Both the position numbers and the translations under genes were made by a program. From Desulfoscipio sp. XC116 (GTDB lineage Bacteria > Bacillota > Desulfotomaculia > Desulfotomaculales > Desulfallaceae): DNA of 64,000 bases. Below the pieces are notes generated by a model. That model was not told the origin of the DNA, ran no database searches, and saw only the letters and a program-made list of their open reading frames with translations. Positions 15,547 through 53,898 of the stretch are shown here, piece by piece (position 1 is the stretch's first letter; the number at the start of each line of letters is the position of its first letter). The stretch lies in the NCBI RefSeq assembly GCF_039851975.1, contig NZ_CP156660.1, positions 2,113,035 through 2,177,034 of the forward strand, given 5' to 3'.

Positions 15547-15689
15547 CAAATTTCCCCCGTTCAGTTCAGAAATAATTAAACCCCCTTCCACGCGGAGTGA
15601 AAGAAGGCCATATATGCATACCGACTCTTTCCGTTTCTCCGGTGATATAGCTCTCCACCCAAACCGGCAAACACAACACGCGCTCATCC

Positions 15690-15885
15690 GGCAACGCCAT
15701 CATAAGCGCCTGCGGGTGACAGTCCGGCACTTGTTCAATGCCGAACCAGCCCGGTGTTACGGAAATAAAACCGGACTTCGGCGGCTTGCCCTTTCACCCC
15801 GGCTCATCGGATTCCCGCTCCTCACCGTCGGTTACTATTGCAAACCGCGCCTCTACACCTCCCAGCGGAGATGAGGTCTATTTAT
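15690..15885 (-). promoter_or_regulatory. Lysine riboswitch (L box) upstream of lysA
   Basis: The minus-strand leader carries the conserved L-box blocks in order: GTAGAGGCGCGG (about 15845-15856), AATAGTAACC, GATGAGCCGGGGTGAAAGG with CGCCGAAG, and GGGCTGG...ACTGTCACC near 15712-15750. Spacing and order match the lysine riboswitch, which lowers lysA expression when lysine is bound. A possible expression platform follows at about 15585-15615, where CCTT...CAC and GTGGAAGG can pair before TTTAATTATTT, although the stem is imperfect. Confidence 0.85.
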
Positions 15886-49392: not shown

Positions 49393-51312
49393 TCACGCGC
49401 CTCCGCCCAAGCCAATTATCTTCCTGCCCCTGGCTTTGCGGGAACCAATCATTTGCATGGCCAGATTAACTATGCTTTCCGGTGTTAGCCCGTATTTTTT
49501 CCGCAAAAACGACTGACTGCCGTGTTCTACGAATATATCCCCGATACCCAAACATTTAACCTGTGTACCGGACATATCTTTGGCCGCAAGTAATTCCAAT
49601 ACGGCCGAGCCAAAACCGCCCGCCAGTATATTTTCCTCTACCGTAATCAAACGGCCGGTAATTGCGGCCCACCGAATGATACATTCCTTGTCCAGTGGTT
49701 TAATAAATCTGGCGTTGATCACGGCAGCCAGCACGCCCCGCTCTTTTAACACAGCCGCCGCGCGGCGAGCCACCGGCACCATATTGCCCACAGCCAGCAA
49801 AGTGATATCTTTACCTTCGACAAGCACCTCGGCCCGACCCACGGGTATAGCCCGGCTGTGCAAATCAAGAGCTACCCCCAAACCGGTGCCCCGGGGATAG
49901 CGCAGCGCACACGGGCCGTTTAATTGCAATGCGGTATGCAGCATGTGCTGCAGCTCGTTTTCATCGGACGGCGCCATAACAGTCATATTGGGAATGCCGC
50001 GTAAATATGAAACGTCAAACAAACCATGGTGGGTGGGACCGTCATCACCTACAATACCGCCGCGGTCCACGGCAAACACCACCGGCAGCTTTTGCAGACA
50101 CACATCATGGATAATCTGGTCATAAGCCCGCTGTAAAAATGTAGAATAAATTGCCACCACGGGTTTTAATCCCTCGCTGGCCAAGCCGGCGGCCAGAGTT
50201 ACCGCATGCTGCTCGGCAATACCTACATCAAAAAACCTGCCGGGAAATCTTTGTGCGAACTTGCCAAGACCGGTGCCACTGCACATGGCAGCGGAGATAC
50301 CGACTACAGCGGGGTCCTGTTCAGCCAGATCAACCAGTGTACGGCCAAAAATTTCCGTATACGTACTGATATCACTTTTTTTTAAACAGTTGCCGGAGCT
50401 GATATCAAAAGGCCCAATGCCATGAAATTTATCCGCCTTTTCCACCGCAGGCGCGTATCCGCGCCCCTTTTCCGTGACCACGTGCACCAGTACCGGGCCA
50501 CCCAGCCCTTTAGCTTGTTCAAAGGTGTTCAGCATGGAGGAAATATTGTGTCCGTCTATAGGTCCCAGGTATGTGAAACCCATTTCTTCAAAAAGCATAC
50601 CCGGCACCACCAGGTATTTAAAGCTGTCCTTAAGCCGTTCAGCTACTTTTACTACCCTGGAGCCAATGGACGGTATACGGCGCAGTAATTGTTCAATTTC
50701 ATCCTTACTGCGGGAATACTTGGGATCGGTACGCATACGATTCAGATAACCCGACATGGCCCCCACATTAGCTGATATACTCATTTTATTATCGTTAAGC
50801 ACTACAATCAGATCTTTTTTCAGGTGCCCGGCGTGATTGAGCGCCTCAAAGGCCATTCCTCCGGTCATTGACCCATCGCCGATCACCGCTACCACGGCGT
50901 GCCGGTCGCCCTTTAAGTCCCTGGCCAACGCCATACCCAGGGCCGCTGATATGGATGTGCTGCTGTGACCTGTGCCGAAAGCATCGTGTTTACTTTCATC
51001 CGGACGGGGAAATCCACTCAGCCCGCCGAAGCAGCGCAGGGTACTGAATTGTTCCCGCCGACCGGTTATTAATTTATGCACATAGCACTGGTGGCCCACA
51101 TCCCAGATGATTTTATCACGAGGCGTGTGAAAGGTACGGTGCAGTGCCAAAGTCAGCTCCACTACCCCCAAGTTGGGAGCCAGATGCCCACCGTTTTTAG
51201 CTACGGTAGCAATAATTTCTTCTCTGATTTCCCCGGCCAGCTCTTCCAGCTGGGTGGCAGCGAGAGCCCGCACATCACAGGGGGAATTTATTTTATCCAG
51301 ATACCTGCCCAA
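49393..51312 (-). CDS. dxs: 1-Deoxy-D-xylulose-5-phosphate synthase
   Basis: First enzyme of the MEP isoprenoid pathway; TPP-dependent. The 639-residue product has VWDVGHQ-like [15 protein letters not shown], the TPP motif [19 protein letters not shown] ... NDNKMSIS, and [18 protein letters not shown] in the pyrimidine domain. TTG start after GAGGTG. It shares the locus with ispA, whose product uses the isoprenoid units it supplies. Confidence 0.97.
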
Positions 51313-51355
51313 GGTTTCACCTCATCCTGTTGTCAGGTTTGTTTCAGGAGTTGAT

Positions 51356-51922
51356 TTATTTTTTCACTAATCCTATACCCGTTATACTACTGAAAGCAGC
51401 TATAATCCTGCCTGCAAAAAAAATTACCCCGTTGGAATTGCTTAAGGCGATTTTTTTACCGTAAGCCTTACCCCCCACGGTAAAGGCAGCAATTAGTGCC
51501 GTTATCATCATATTCAATACAAATCGATTAAGATCCTCCCGAAGAGTCATAATTTGCAATGCCAGGGCAATACCCAGCGCACCGCTGACCGTACCTGCTA
51601 TATCACCTATTACATCGTTTGCTATATTAGCCACCCGATCGGCATTGCGAATCAAAAACACACCTTCACGAGCCCCGACAACTTTCTTTGACGCCTTGGC
51701 ATGAAAGGGAGCCTCATCCGCCGCAGCCACCGAGGTACCGATAACATCCGCAGCAATACCAAATAATATAATGAAAATCAACAGGAAGAACGAAAAAGCC
51801 GGGCTATCCAAAGTTTCGGATAAAAACTGTGATAATAAAAAGAAAAACGCGGCAAAGGTAAAAGAAATAAAACCGATAAATACAACAAACTTGCCGGAAA
51901 CCGTAGACTTGTTATTCTTCAA
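51356..51922 (-). CDS. oapA: OLE RNA-associated membrane protein OapA
   Basis: A 188-residue membrane protein (TTG start at 51922, eight nt after GGAG) with about four helices. It contains FGIAADVIGTSVAAADEAPFH and NDVIGDIAGTVSGALG, with Asp spaced as in the conserved D-xxx-D motif of OapA; automated annotation often calls this family CorB-like. In other Firmicutes OapA binds OLE RNA and brings it to the membrane, with roles in tolerance of alcohol, cold and metal stress. Identification rests on size, topology and position directly after the OLE RNA and before dxs. Confidence 0.85.
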   Translation of the reverse strand: MKNNKSTVSGKFVVFIGFISFTFAAFFFLLSQFLSETLDSPAFSFFLLIFIILFGIAADVIGTSVAAADEAPFHAKASKKVVGAREGVFLIRNADRVANIANDVIGDIAGTVSGALGIALALQIMTLREDLNRFVLNMMITALIAAFTVGGKAYGKKIALSNSNGVIFFAGRIIAAFSSITGIGLVKK

Positions 51923-52142
51923 ACTTTTCACTCCGTAAACAAATTCTTAATTCAGGTTGGTTTTTCACTCTCCGGACATATGAACCCTTAATTAGGGACA
52001 TTCATTCCAAAAAAGGTGTGTTTGCCAATTCGCTGAATTAGAAGTTGTTATCCAGTAGCTTAGCGCCGCTTATCTCCCGATTAAACAGTGAAAGTATTGG
52101 CGACGGTTAGCTGTTGGAATGTATGACAGCCTAATATATGAA

Positions 52143-52172
52143 GGTGTCCCGGTCTTTTTAAACCCGGGCACC
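52143..52172 (-). terminator. GC-rich hairpin at the 3' end of OLE RNA
   Basis: GGTGCCCGG pairs with CCGGGACACC around an A-rich loop, 14 nt beyond the 3' arm of the long-range OLE stem. No T-run follows, so it may be a 3' structural element or a processing/pausing signal rather than a full terminator; oapA could still be read from the same transcript. Confidence 0.5.
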
Positions 52173-52185
52173 GATTTATGTATAC

Positions 52186-52796
52186 GAACAAGTGACGACC
52201 GCACGGGTAAATGTTGTGGCTTAGGTCCAGCAGGTTTTCCCAACTTCGTACCGGCTGTCACCATACCGGCGGTTTCCCATTAAACGAAATTCCGAAAAGT
52301 TTTCATTTCGGGGCTGGATTACCACTTAGTCCACACTGCAATCCCCGTACCGTCCCGATGCATCGGACAGCCTAGGAGTTTTCCTCAACAGGAGTACCTT
52401 TTCCTAGCCTCTTTTGCAATGACGGTTTAAACTCACGGCACATTACGTATGGGCCCATATGCAATGTCCCGCTTAAAAGGCCTCCACCGGCACCACTCAA
52501 GGCAGGCTACGCTGCACGCAGCTTTCCCCACGTGCAGGTTTACTCCCAAGCCATAGCGGCTGCTGTTGGCAAACCGCCACGCACTTGGGTCTCCACGGGG
52601 GCAGGGTCAACGCCCACATGCCATTGCGGGTCGCCCCGCCCCCTTAACTCCCAGTACCAACCCCCAACTGGGCGTCGGCAGCCAGCACCAGGAACTTCAT
52701 CGATGTGCCCTTGACGGATTTTTAGGCCCGCCTTCAAAAAAGGGTTCCCGACTAGGATACTGCATCACTTGTTCAATAATAATAAAGCTCTTTCAG
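52186..52796 (-). ncRNA. ole: OLE RNA (ornate large extremophilic RNA)
   Basis: The gap between ispA and oapA-dxs, about 950 bp, is G/C-rich, poor in believable frames and highly structured. GAACAAGTGA near the 5' end (52765-52774) pairs perfectly with TCACTTGTTC (52186-52195), closing a 589-nt domain. Inside are strong local helices such as the near-palindrome around ATGGGCCCAT (52448-52457), CTAGGA/TCCTAG (52371-52410 region) and GTCCGATGCATCGGGAC. Length (about 610 nt), strand and location between ispA and oapA are those of OLE RNA in other anaerobic and extremophilic Firmicutes. It forms a membrane-bound RNP with OapA. Confidence 0.88.
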
Positions 52797-52802
52797 TGAA
52801 TA

Positions 52803-52832
52803 ATTATAACATGATGCTAACCGGAGCGACAA
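52803..52832 (-). promoter_or_regulatory. Predicted promoter of OLE RNA
   Basis: Minus strand TTGTCG (52827-52832), 18-nt spacer, perfect TATAAT (52803-52808). Transcription would begin about 52796, some 22 nt before the 5' arm of the closing stem. It implies transcription of OLE independent of the ispA operon. Confidence 0.65.
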
Positions 52833-52879
52833 ACACCTATTCCCGCCGTCCGGCATAAATTTTGCACCGATGTCTATAT

Positions 52880-53011
52880 TTAATGACCCCGCGCTGAGTC
52901 GCGTTCGTCAATGCCCCTGTTTAGAATAGTTATCCATATCCCCAGGTACAATACCACAGCGAGAATGACTTTCAGGAAAGCTTCCGTCGCCTTGATGGGT
53001 GCGGCTATCAA
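52880..53011 (-). CDS. Possible 43-residue single-helix membrane peptide
   Basis: A TTG that overlaps the ispA stop (TTGA) opens a frame (M)IAAPIKATEAFLKVILAV ... ITILNRGIDERDSARGH. The middle is a clear membrane helix (FLKVILAVVLYLGIWITIL) and the tail is charged, as in real small membrane proteins. The stop overlap suggests translational coupling to ispA. It ends 48 bp before the OLE promoter. There is no strong Shine-Dalgarno, so it stays a candidate; no family recognised. Confidence 0.45.
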   Translation of the reverse strand: MIAAPIKATEAFLKVILAVVLYLGIWITILNRGIDERDSARGH

Positions 53012-53898
53012 TGTTCTCTATGCAACACAAATCGGACCAGCTCGCGCAAAAAATCAGCTTCGGCACCAAAAGAGGCCAATACGGCGATAGCCTGCTCCGC
53101 CGCCTGCCGAGCCTTGGTTCTGGCTGTCGCCATACCGTACAACGCCGGATATGTAGCCTTTTGGTTATTGGTGTCACTGCCTACAGGCTTGCCCAGCTTT
53201 TGCTCGTCCCCTTCAATATCCAGTATATCGTCAATAATTTGAAAAGCCAGCCCCAGTTTTTCGGCATAAACAGTGAGATCATTCAGCTGCTCGGGGCCGG
53301 CTCCGGATAATATAGCTCCGGCCCGCACCGATGCCCTGTACAATGCACCTGTCTTACGGGTATGAATGTACTCCAAGGTTTGCTTATCGATCAACTTACC
53401 GGTAGATAGTATGTCCATTACCTGACCACCGATTAGACCGGATGTGCCGGCCGCCTCAGCCACTTCGGCAATTACCTGTACCACCTCACCCGTACTAAAA
53501 GGCCCGGTCCTGGTTAGCCCGGCCAAAAGCCCGAAAGCCGAGGTCAGCAGCGCATCACCCACCAGCACGGCTATGGCTTCACCATACACCTTATGATTGG
53601 TGGGCTTGCCCCGGCGCAAATCATCATTATCCATGGCCGGCAGATCATCATGCACCAACGAATACGTATGCAGCAGTTCTATCGCACAAGCAGCGGGCAG
53701 CATAGTTTTTTCATTGCCACCTACAGCCCGGGCCCCAGCCAGCACCAAGGCCGGCCTAAGCCGCTTGCCGCCGACAAAAACGCTGTAGCGCATAGCCTCG
53801 TGAATCACGGAGGGGTAACTGCCGGCCGGCGGCAGATAGTCATTAAGAGCCTTGTCCACAATACCCGCCTGCCTGGCCAATTCCTCTTTGAAACCCAT
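53008..53898 (-). CDS. ispA: Geranyltranstransferase (farnesyl diphosphate synthase)
   Basis: Makes geranyl and farnesyl diphosphate from IPP and DMAPP. The 296-residue product has the first Asp-rich motif HDDLPAMDNDDLRRGKPTNH and the second QIIDDILDIEGDE, plus GGKRLRPAL. GGAG precedes the ATG. Its start is 2 bp after xseB. The OLE RNA lies directly downstream. Confidence 0.97.
   Translation of the reverse strand: MGFKEELARQAGIVDKALNDYLPPAGSYPSVIHEAMRYSVFVGGKRLRPALVLAGARAVGGNEKTMLPAACAIELLHTYSLVHDDLPAMDNDDLRRGKPTNHKVYGEAIAVLVGDALLTSAFGLLAGLTRTGPFSTGEVVQVIAEVAEAAGTSGLIGGQVMDILSTGKLIDKQTLEYIHTRKTGALYRASVRAGAILSGAGPEQLNDLTVYAEKLGLAFQIIDDILDIEGDEQKLGKPVGSDTNNQKATYPALYGMATARTKARQAAEQAIAVLASFGAEADFLRELVRFVLHREH

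Follow-up and report, generated by a model that had tools for sequence, protein, structure and literature searches.

The window, a stretch of 64,000 nucleotides from Desulfoscipio sp. XC116, carries on its minus strand an OLE locus that is ordinary, complete and well conserved. OLE is an established class of large bacterial RNA, known to assemble at the membrane into a particle that acts in the stress response. We are highly confident that the locus makes both the OLE RNA and its membrane anchor OapA, and we infer read-through from one into the other followed by processing. Alone, the locus is one more complete OLE gene set and does not change the question of what the class does. The comparison with its relatives is more useful: it yields a terminal stem without counterpart in the public model, a predicted promoter of its own throughout the order (Desulfotomaculales), and a natural experiment in OLE genes that lie apart from oapA. 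Of these modest additions the stand-alone lineage counts most, ahead of the conserved promoter and the covarying closing stem. The genes of the locus, in minus-strand order, are as follows.

53008–53898, minus strand: ispA, farnesyl diphosphate synthase (NF045485, 376.5 bits against a cut-off of 275)
52176–52784, minus strand: OLE RNA gene (full-length Rfam match, model positions 1–616; single genomic copy)
51356–51922, minus strand: oapA, the OLE membrane partner (188 aa, TTG start; from DxxxD and the predicted fold)
49393–51312, minus strand: dxs (DXP_synthase_N, 1.8e-127)

Upstream of ispA lies xseB, and dxs is followed by tlyA-, nadK-, argR- and recN-like frames (named by eye). The identification of the RNA, proposed in a sequence-only reading of this DNA, is borne out by the Rfam OLE model: RF01071 matches the minus strand from 52784 to 52176 with 534.6 bits (gathering score 50), a value that falls among those of congeners, and a genome-wide search finds this one copy only. 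In OLE variants 1 and 2, which according to the available text of PMC11332333 belong to the same family with an altered P7–P9, these stems are shortened or missing; the RF01071 alignment of the window OLE, by contrast, spans the full-length P7–P9 stems, which sets it apart from both variants. All 11 tested motifs are intact, and the 622-nt RNA 52797–52176 folds 6.07 sd below 20 dinucleotide shuffles, that is, beyond chance. A decayed or non-functional copy, kept through its linkage to isoprenoid genes, would agree with the repeat that adjoins OLE (see below) and with the lack of a detectable defect under optimal growth after OLE deletion in Halalkalibacterium (Bacillus) halodurans, given in the accessible part of PMC12265935. 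Such decay is nevertheless the least probable of all the readings considered here, given the full-length match, the score within the congener range, the intact motifs, and the presence of the closing stem, the promoter and homologues of all three partner proteins.

For comparison, 113 genomes were searched, 101 were OLE-positive, and 96 loci of the order from 95 genomes were analysed, 87 of them non-stand-alone and nine stand-alone; six OLE-positive genomes were left out (G009, with the partial locus L080, and G013, G039, G078, G083 and G087). The 77 loci from outside the order (27 + 30 + 20) are no random sample, having been chosen for their high or low scores. Three draft genomes scored as OLE-negative (G097, G084 and G044, loci L122, L124 and L130) have a contig that starts inside OLE just upstream of oapA, so part of the “OLE-negative” drafts are assembly breaks.

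Within the RNA, three elements with published roles can be placed.

52719–52723, minus strand: A-rich loop taken as L4 (loop matched to the text of PMC12286853)
52451–52456, minus strand: GGGCCC palindrome taken as the P9.3 loop, a kissing-loop dimer contact (from the sequence)
52251–52272, minus strand: hairpin assigned to P13, within the OapB-binding region (putative placement)

In other species, two OLE RNAs dimerise via loops that include L4 and P9.3; in the parts of PMC12286853 available, L4 is the A–A dimer contact of the published structures, and GGGCCC in P9 is tied to the dimer through its internal GGCC. Both conserved dimer loops, the A-rich L4 and the symmetric P9.3, are present in the window OLE at the level of sequence. 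Within the order, the A-rich L4 motif recurs in 84/87 non-stand-alone and 9/9 stand-alone loci. GGGCCC is found in the P9 segment of 77/80 parsed non-stand-alone loci, a count for which the whole segment was searched, not the loop alone, and from which 7/87 unparsed loci are missing; in the other three, the core of the palindrome is among the types that the same source (PMC12286853) lists. The P12.2/P13 region is named as the OapB-binding site in the available portions of PMC9723947 and PMC12265935. Published work on other species, as far as its text is available, has OapA binding OLE at the membrane, OapB at P12.2/P13 and OapC at a kink turn, in a particle that helps the cell adapt to stress.

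The two ends of the RNA are joined by a stem.

52764–52774, minus strand: 5′ arm of the closing stem (sequence, covariation, folding)
52186–52196, minus strand: 3′ arm of the closing stem (sequence, covariation, folding)

The minus-strand 5′ arm GAACAAGTGA (52774–52765) forms 10 perfect pairs with TCACTTGTTC (52195–52186), exactly where an end-to-end stem had been proposed, and a U–G pair (52764/52196) lengthens it. The 589 nt given earlier for the enclosed region is the right number for the span with both arms counted in, but not for the interior. The stem is formed in both the MFE and the centroid structures of the 622-nt RNA. With the two arms taken at set distances from conserved anchors, a choice in which pairing played no part, we find that the closing stem covaries across the 96 loci of the order: 88.4% of cells pair in the 89 distinct arm pairs, against a mean of 77.0% and a maximum of 79.5% when 3′ arms are swapped between species (2000 swaps), and at most 57.3% at other offsets (5–17). 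At least nine of the 11 stem positions are exchanged on both sides, position 8, for example, being A–U in 46 and G–C in 24. An uninterrupted run of at least eight pairs is present in 84/96 loci; in the other 12 the run at the fixed offset is shorter, and about half of these look base-shifted by eye.

In the structure line of RF01071, both OLE ends are unpaired. The closing stem is nonetheless likely to be P1 of the published OLE consensus, because P2 is located at a palindromic OapA site in the available text of PMC12265935, and we therefore do not call it new. The 3′ end of the mature RNA probably lies near 52186–52196, and the stem would draw both ends of the RNA together.

Upstream of the stem lies the promoter.

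52803–52832, minus strand: promoter TTGTCG-18-TATAAT with an extended −10 (TG) (from the site itself and 93/96 loci of the order)

The proposed promoter is thus found to the letter (TTGTCG at 52832–52827, spacer 18, TATAAT at 52808–52803), with the TG of an extended −10 in addition, and would place the start of OLE transcription near 52796. It scores 10/12, the best of four promoter-like sites in 51200–53050; shuffled versions of that region average 2.7 such sites, so the window site is unconvincing without comparison. Across the order, a score of at least 8 is reached within 110 nt upstream of the stem in 93/96 loci, against 2/96 in the control stretch (220–330 nt upstream) and 15.7% of mononucleotide shuffles; at a score of at least 10 the figures are 64/96, 0/96 and 0.4%. 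At the best site, the TG extension is present in 92/96 loci and the spacer measures 17 or 18 in 93/96; only three loci score below 8 (L093, L044 and L085). Judged from these sequences, the comparison shows a predicted own promoter to be general for OLE genes in this order. For B. halodurans, an own promoter for ole within a large operon, together with presumed processing, is printed in the available text of PMC9723947, so the order-wide promoter extends a known fact.

On the 3′ side, the reading adopted here has a transcript that would run from this promoter through OLE into oapA, perhaps dxs, with a mature RNA of about 610 nt cut from the longer transcript. Two features occupy the spacer.

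52143–52172, minus strand: GC-rich hairpin directly after OLE (without a T-tract; not called a terminator)
51937–52122, minus strand: interspersed hairpin repeat in the OLE–oapA spacer (about 180 nt; limits by eye)

The extra GC-rich hairpin proposed for the end of the RNA is present (52172–52143, within a fold of dG −16.8) and has no T-tract. Transcription independent of the isoprenoid genes had also been proposed; its promoter exists, but no terminator is called between the window OLE and oapA, which makes read-through and 3′ processing likelier than independence. A fully independent unit, in which OLE stops at this hairpin and oapA–dxs is transcribed separately, would suit the conserved promoter, the hairpin itself, the long spacer (oapA begins 253 nt after OLE, where the median gap of the 86 linked loci is 48.5) and a weak promoter-like site at 52162–52133, from which oapA could have its own start, although this site scores 9/12 in two registers and is of a kind found at chance frequency. 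Set against this are the missing T-tract and uncalled terminator, and the pattern across loci inside and outside the order: the 60 nt that follow OLE hold a called terminator in 12/158 linked loci but 13/14 unlinked ones, and we consider the independent unit unlikely.

The contrast holds over 110 nt (37/158 linked against 13/14 unlinked), a stretch that in linked loci often extends into oapA. It was also seen in a first count of 20/158 against 14/15, in which the linked stretches were shorter, having been searched only to oapA; L057, a contig end that the script had labelled unlinked, was then dropped, turning 14/15 into 13/14. Read most simply, the counts mean that transcription of linked OLE genes continues into oapA and the RNA is processed, and that transcription of unlinked ones terminates. 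The available text of PMC11332333 describes a processed OLE 3′ end in H. halodurans. That OLE is only a long structured leader of oapA–dxs, acting in cis, would fit its place directly upstream of these genes with no terminator called between them. Yet oapA does not adjoin OLE at nine loci of the order and at five from elsewhere, and 13 of these 14 have a called terminator, so OLE is kept where cis action on oapA is impossible; a leader alone is therefore very improbable, if a shade less so than decay.

The window spacer is the third longest of the 86 because of the hairpin-forming repeat within it, which is missing from the OLE–oapA spacers of six congeners. A 31-base pattern finds five copies of the repeat (about 170–190 nt) in 3/16 genomes of the family, the others being L230 (G000:C1:2241423–2241453), L226, L227 and L229. 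Its fold is strong in L229 (z −7.25) and weaker in the window copy (z −2.49). A known RNA family was rejected for the window repeat, with no Rfam match up to E 5; a mobile hairpin element or a leader RNA is the candidate identity. The repeat could weaken the coupling of OLE and oapA. By eye, a possible reading frame begins shortly after each copy, and one of these frames resembles ribosomal protein L10.

The protein encoded next to OLE, put forward earlier as OapA, is indeed OapA by position, the DxxxD motif, the weak CNNM matches of its relatives and its predicted fold. Its TTG start at 51922 fits the RBS spacing and the N-termini of relatives better than a GTG at 51931 (by eye). OLE is followed by oapA and dxs in 86/96 loci of the order, 84 of which also have ispA in front of it; the remaining 10 are the nine stand-alone loci and L057, which runs off the contig end after the first 31 OapA model positions. 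Aligned with 18 other OapA of the order, the window OapA shares 37–63% identity with them, and D106 and D110 are invariant in 23/23 rows of the alignment. The form DxxGD occurs in 77/81 OapA of the order, and DxxxD is given as distinctive of OapA in the available text of PMC11332333.

Searches of Pfam and NCBIfam assign OapA to no family, the only matches being MARVEL (E 0.0033) and DUF6773 (0.018), both below cut-off. Down to E 0.1, Pfam does not link the window protein to CNNM, and relatives match CNNM weakly, below cut-off. A profile search of the PDB returned only two chance-level CoaBC matches, none credible, and we therefore compared folds. The predicted structure (mean pLDDT 87.5) matches four CNNM/CorC entries with Z scores of 13.9, 13.3, 12.2 and 12.1, the next rows being at most 8.1. 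OapA is thus predicted to share the membrane-domain fold of the CNNM/CorC (MpfA) magnesium transporters; it differs from them in having the DxxxD motif and, in its 188 aa, no detected CBS or CorC domain.

The window genome also encodes homologues of the other two partners, completing a set of OapA, OapB and OapC. The OapB homologue (103 aa; best PDB match 7k9b, “OLE-associated protein B,” E 4.5e-11) sits between map and infA, and the OapC homologue (best PDB match YbxF, 4lck, E 5.6e-15) between rpoC and rpsL, all neighbours being named by eye. OapB, of KOW type, and OapC (YbxF), of L7Ae type, are not universal in the OLE class; in H. halodurans, the accessible part of PMC11332333 gives the three partner proteins as essential. 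The window locus thus shares with that of H. halodurans the full-length structure, oapA directly downstream, an own promoter, isoprenoid gene neighbours and OapB and OapC homologues in the genome, and differs in its host, in the repeat between OLE and oapA, and in two CNNM-family genes in the genome.

The part most worth following, the interest of the window itself being modest, is the stand-alone lineage. Nine OLE genes of the order (L062 and L100–L107; eight in family f4 and one in f10) adjoin neither ispA, oapA nor dxs. They share with the window OLE the RNA family, the kind of promoter (the three low scorers are all non-stand-alone loci) and the core motifs. They differ in lying away from oapA, in an intrinsic terminator (called after the closing stem in 9/9), in their shorter length (559–596 nt), in mostly lacking the P9.3 palindrome, and in forming a separate clade. 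A six-base palindrome is absent from the P9 segment of 7/9, counting L106, which has a bare GATC. In a FastTree phylogeny of the 96 loci, the stand-alone genes form one group apart from the 87 others (support 1.0). The group returns with an SH-aLRT of 100, and the 20 non-stand-alone loci with one of 99, in a quick IQ-TREE search that held 20/87 non-stand-alone loci, the nine stand-alone ones and 70 of the 77 from outside the order. FastTree placed the clade among lineages from outside the class, but we do not claim a horizontal origin: for the OLEs of the order in that tree, the AU test does not reject a single clade (p 0.695), and the constrained tree scored higher. The clade may have arisen from an old duplication.

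Loss of OapA as a rule in these genomes was considered and is unsupported: of the eight genomes of the order whose sole OLE is a stand-alone one, six have OapA (G025, G026, G027, G031, G032 and G069). In these six, oapA sits between ispA and dxs, and no OLE match was obtained in the ispA–dxs interval (blastn; nhmmer at E 10). OapA was not found in the drafts G028 (84% complete) and G030 (97% complete), whose stand-alone genes L107 and L106 are candidate exceptions to the OLE–OapA rule. Outside the order, oapA lies downstream in 72/77 fetched loci, and all five genomes with an unlinked OLE have oapA elsewhere. In the available text of PMC11332333, OLE and OapA are almost completely mutually inclusive; our counts largely agree, the incomplete drafts G028 and G030 being possible exceptions. 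The counts also show that OLE and oapA need not be neighbours.

We rate as evenly balanced the chances that one order holds two OLE lineages, one linked to oapA, read through and processed, the other standing alone, with OapA supplied in trans and the P9.3 contact mostly abandoned. One genome, G029, carries both kinds (stand-alone L062 and canonical L061) and, if this reading is true, could form mixed or alternative OLE particles. As natural variants, the unlinked OLE genes would allow the need for the P9.3 contact, and for co-production with OapA, to be tested. A literature search that covered few of the OLE papers in subscription journals gave none that describes stand-alone OLE genes ending in terminators, which is weak evidence of absence.

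Some minor observations complete the picture. The available text of PMC11332333 states that OLE-bearing species typically carry no more than one MpfA. If the CNNM domain stands in for MpfA, its anticorrelation with OLE is not visible in the order: among eight genomes negative for both OLE and OapA (G040, G046, G047, G074–G077 and G110), only G046 has a CNNM match. The window genome, which bears a complete OLE gene set, has two neighbouring CNNM-family matches (G000:C1:1331814–1332401 and 1333368–1333925, in frames of 447 and 443 aa), a point against the reading adopted here for the locus. Elsewhere in the window, a lysine riboswitch lies at 15640–15863 on the minus strand (112.9 bits).
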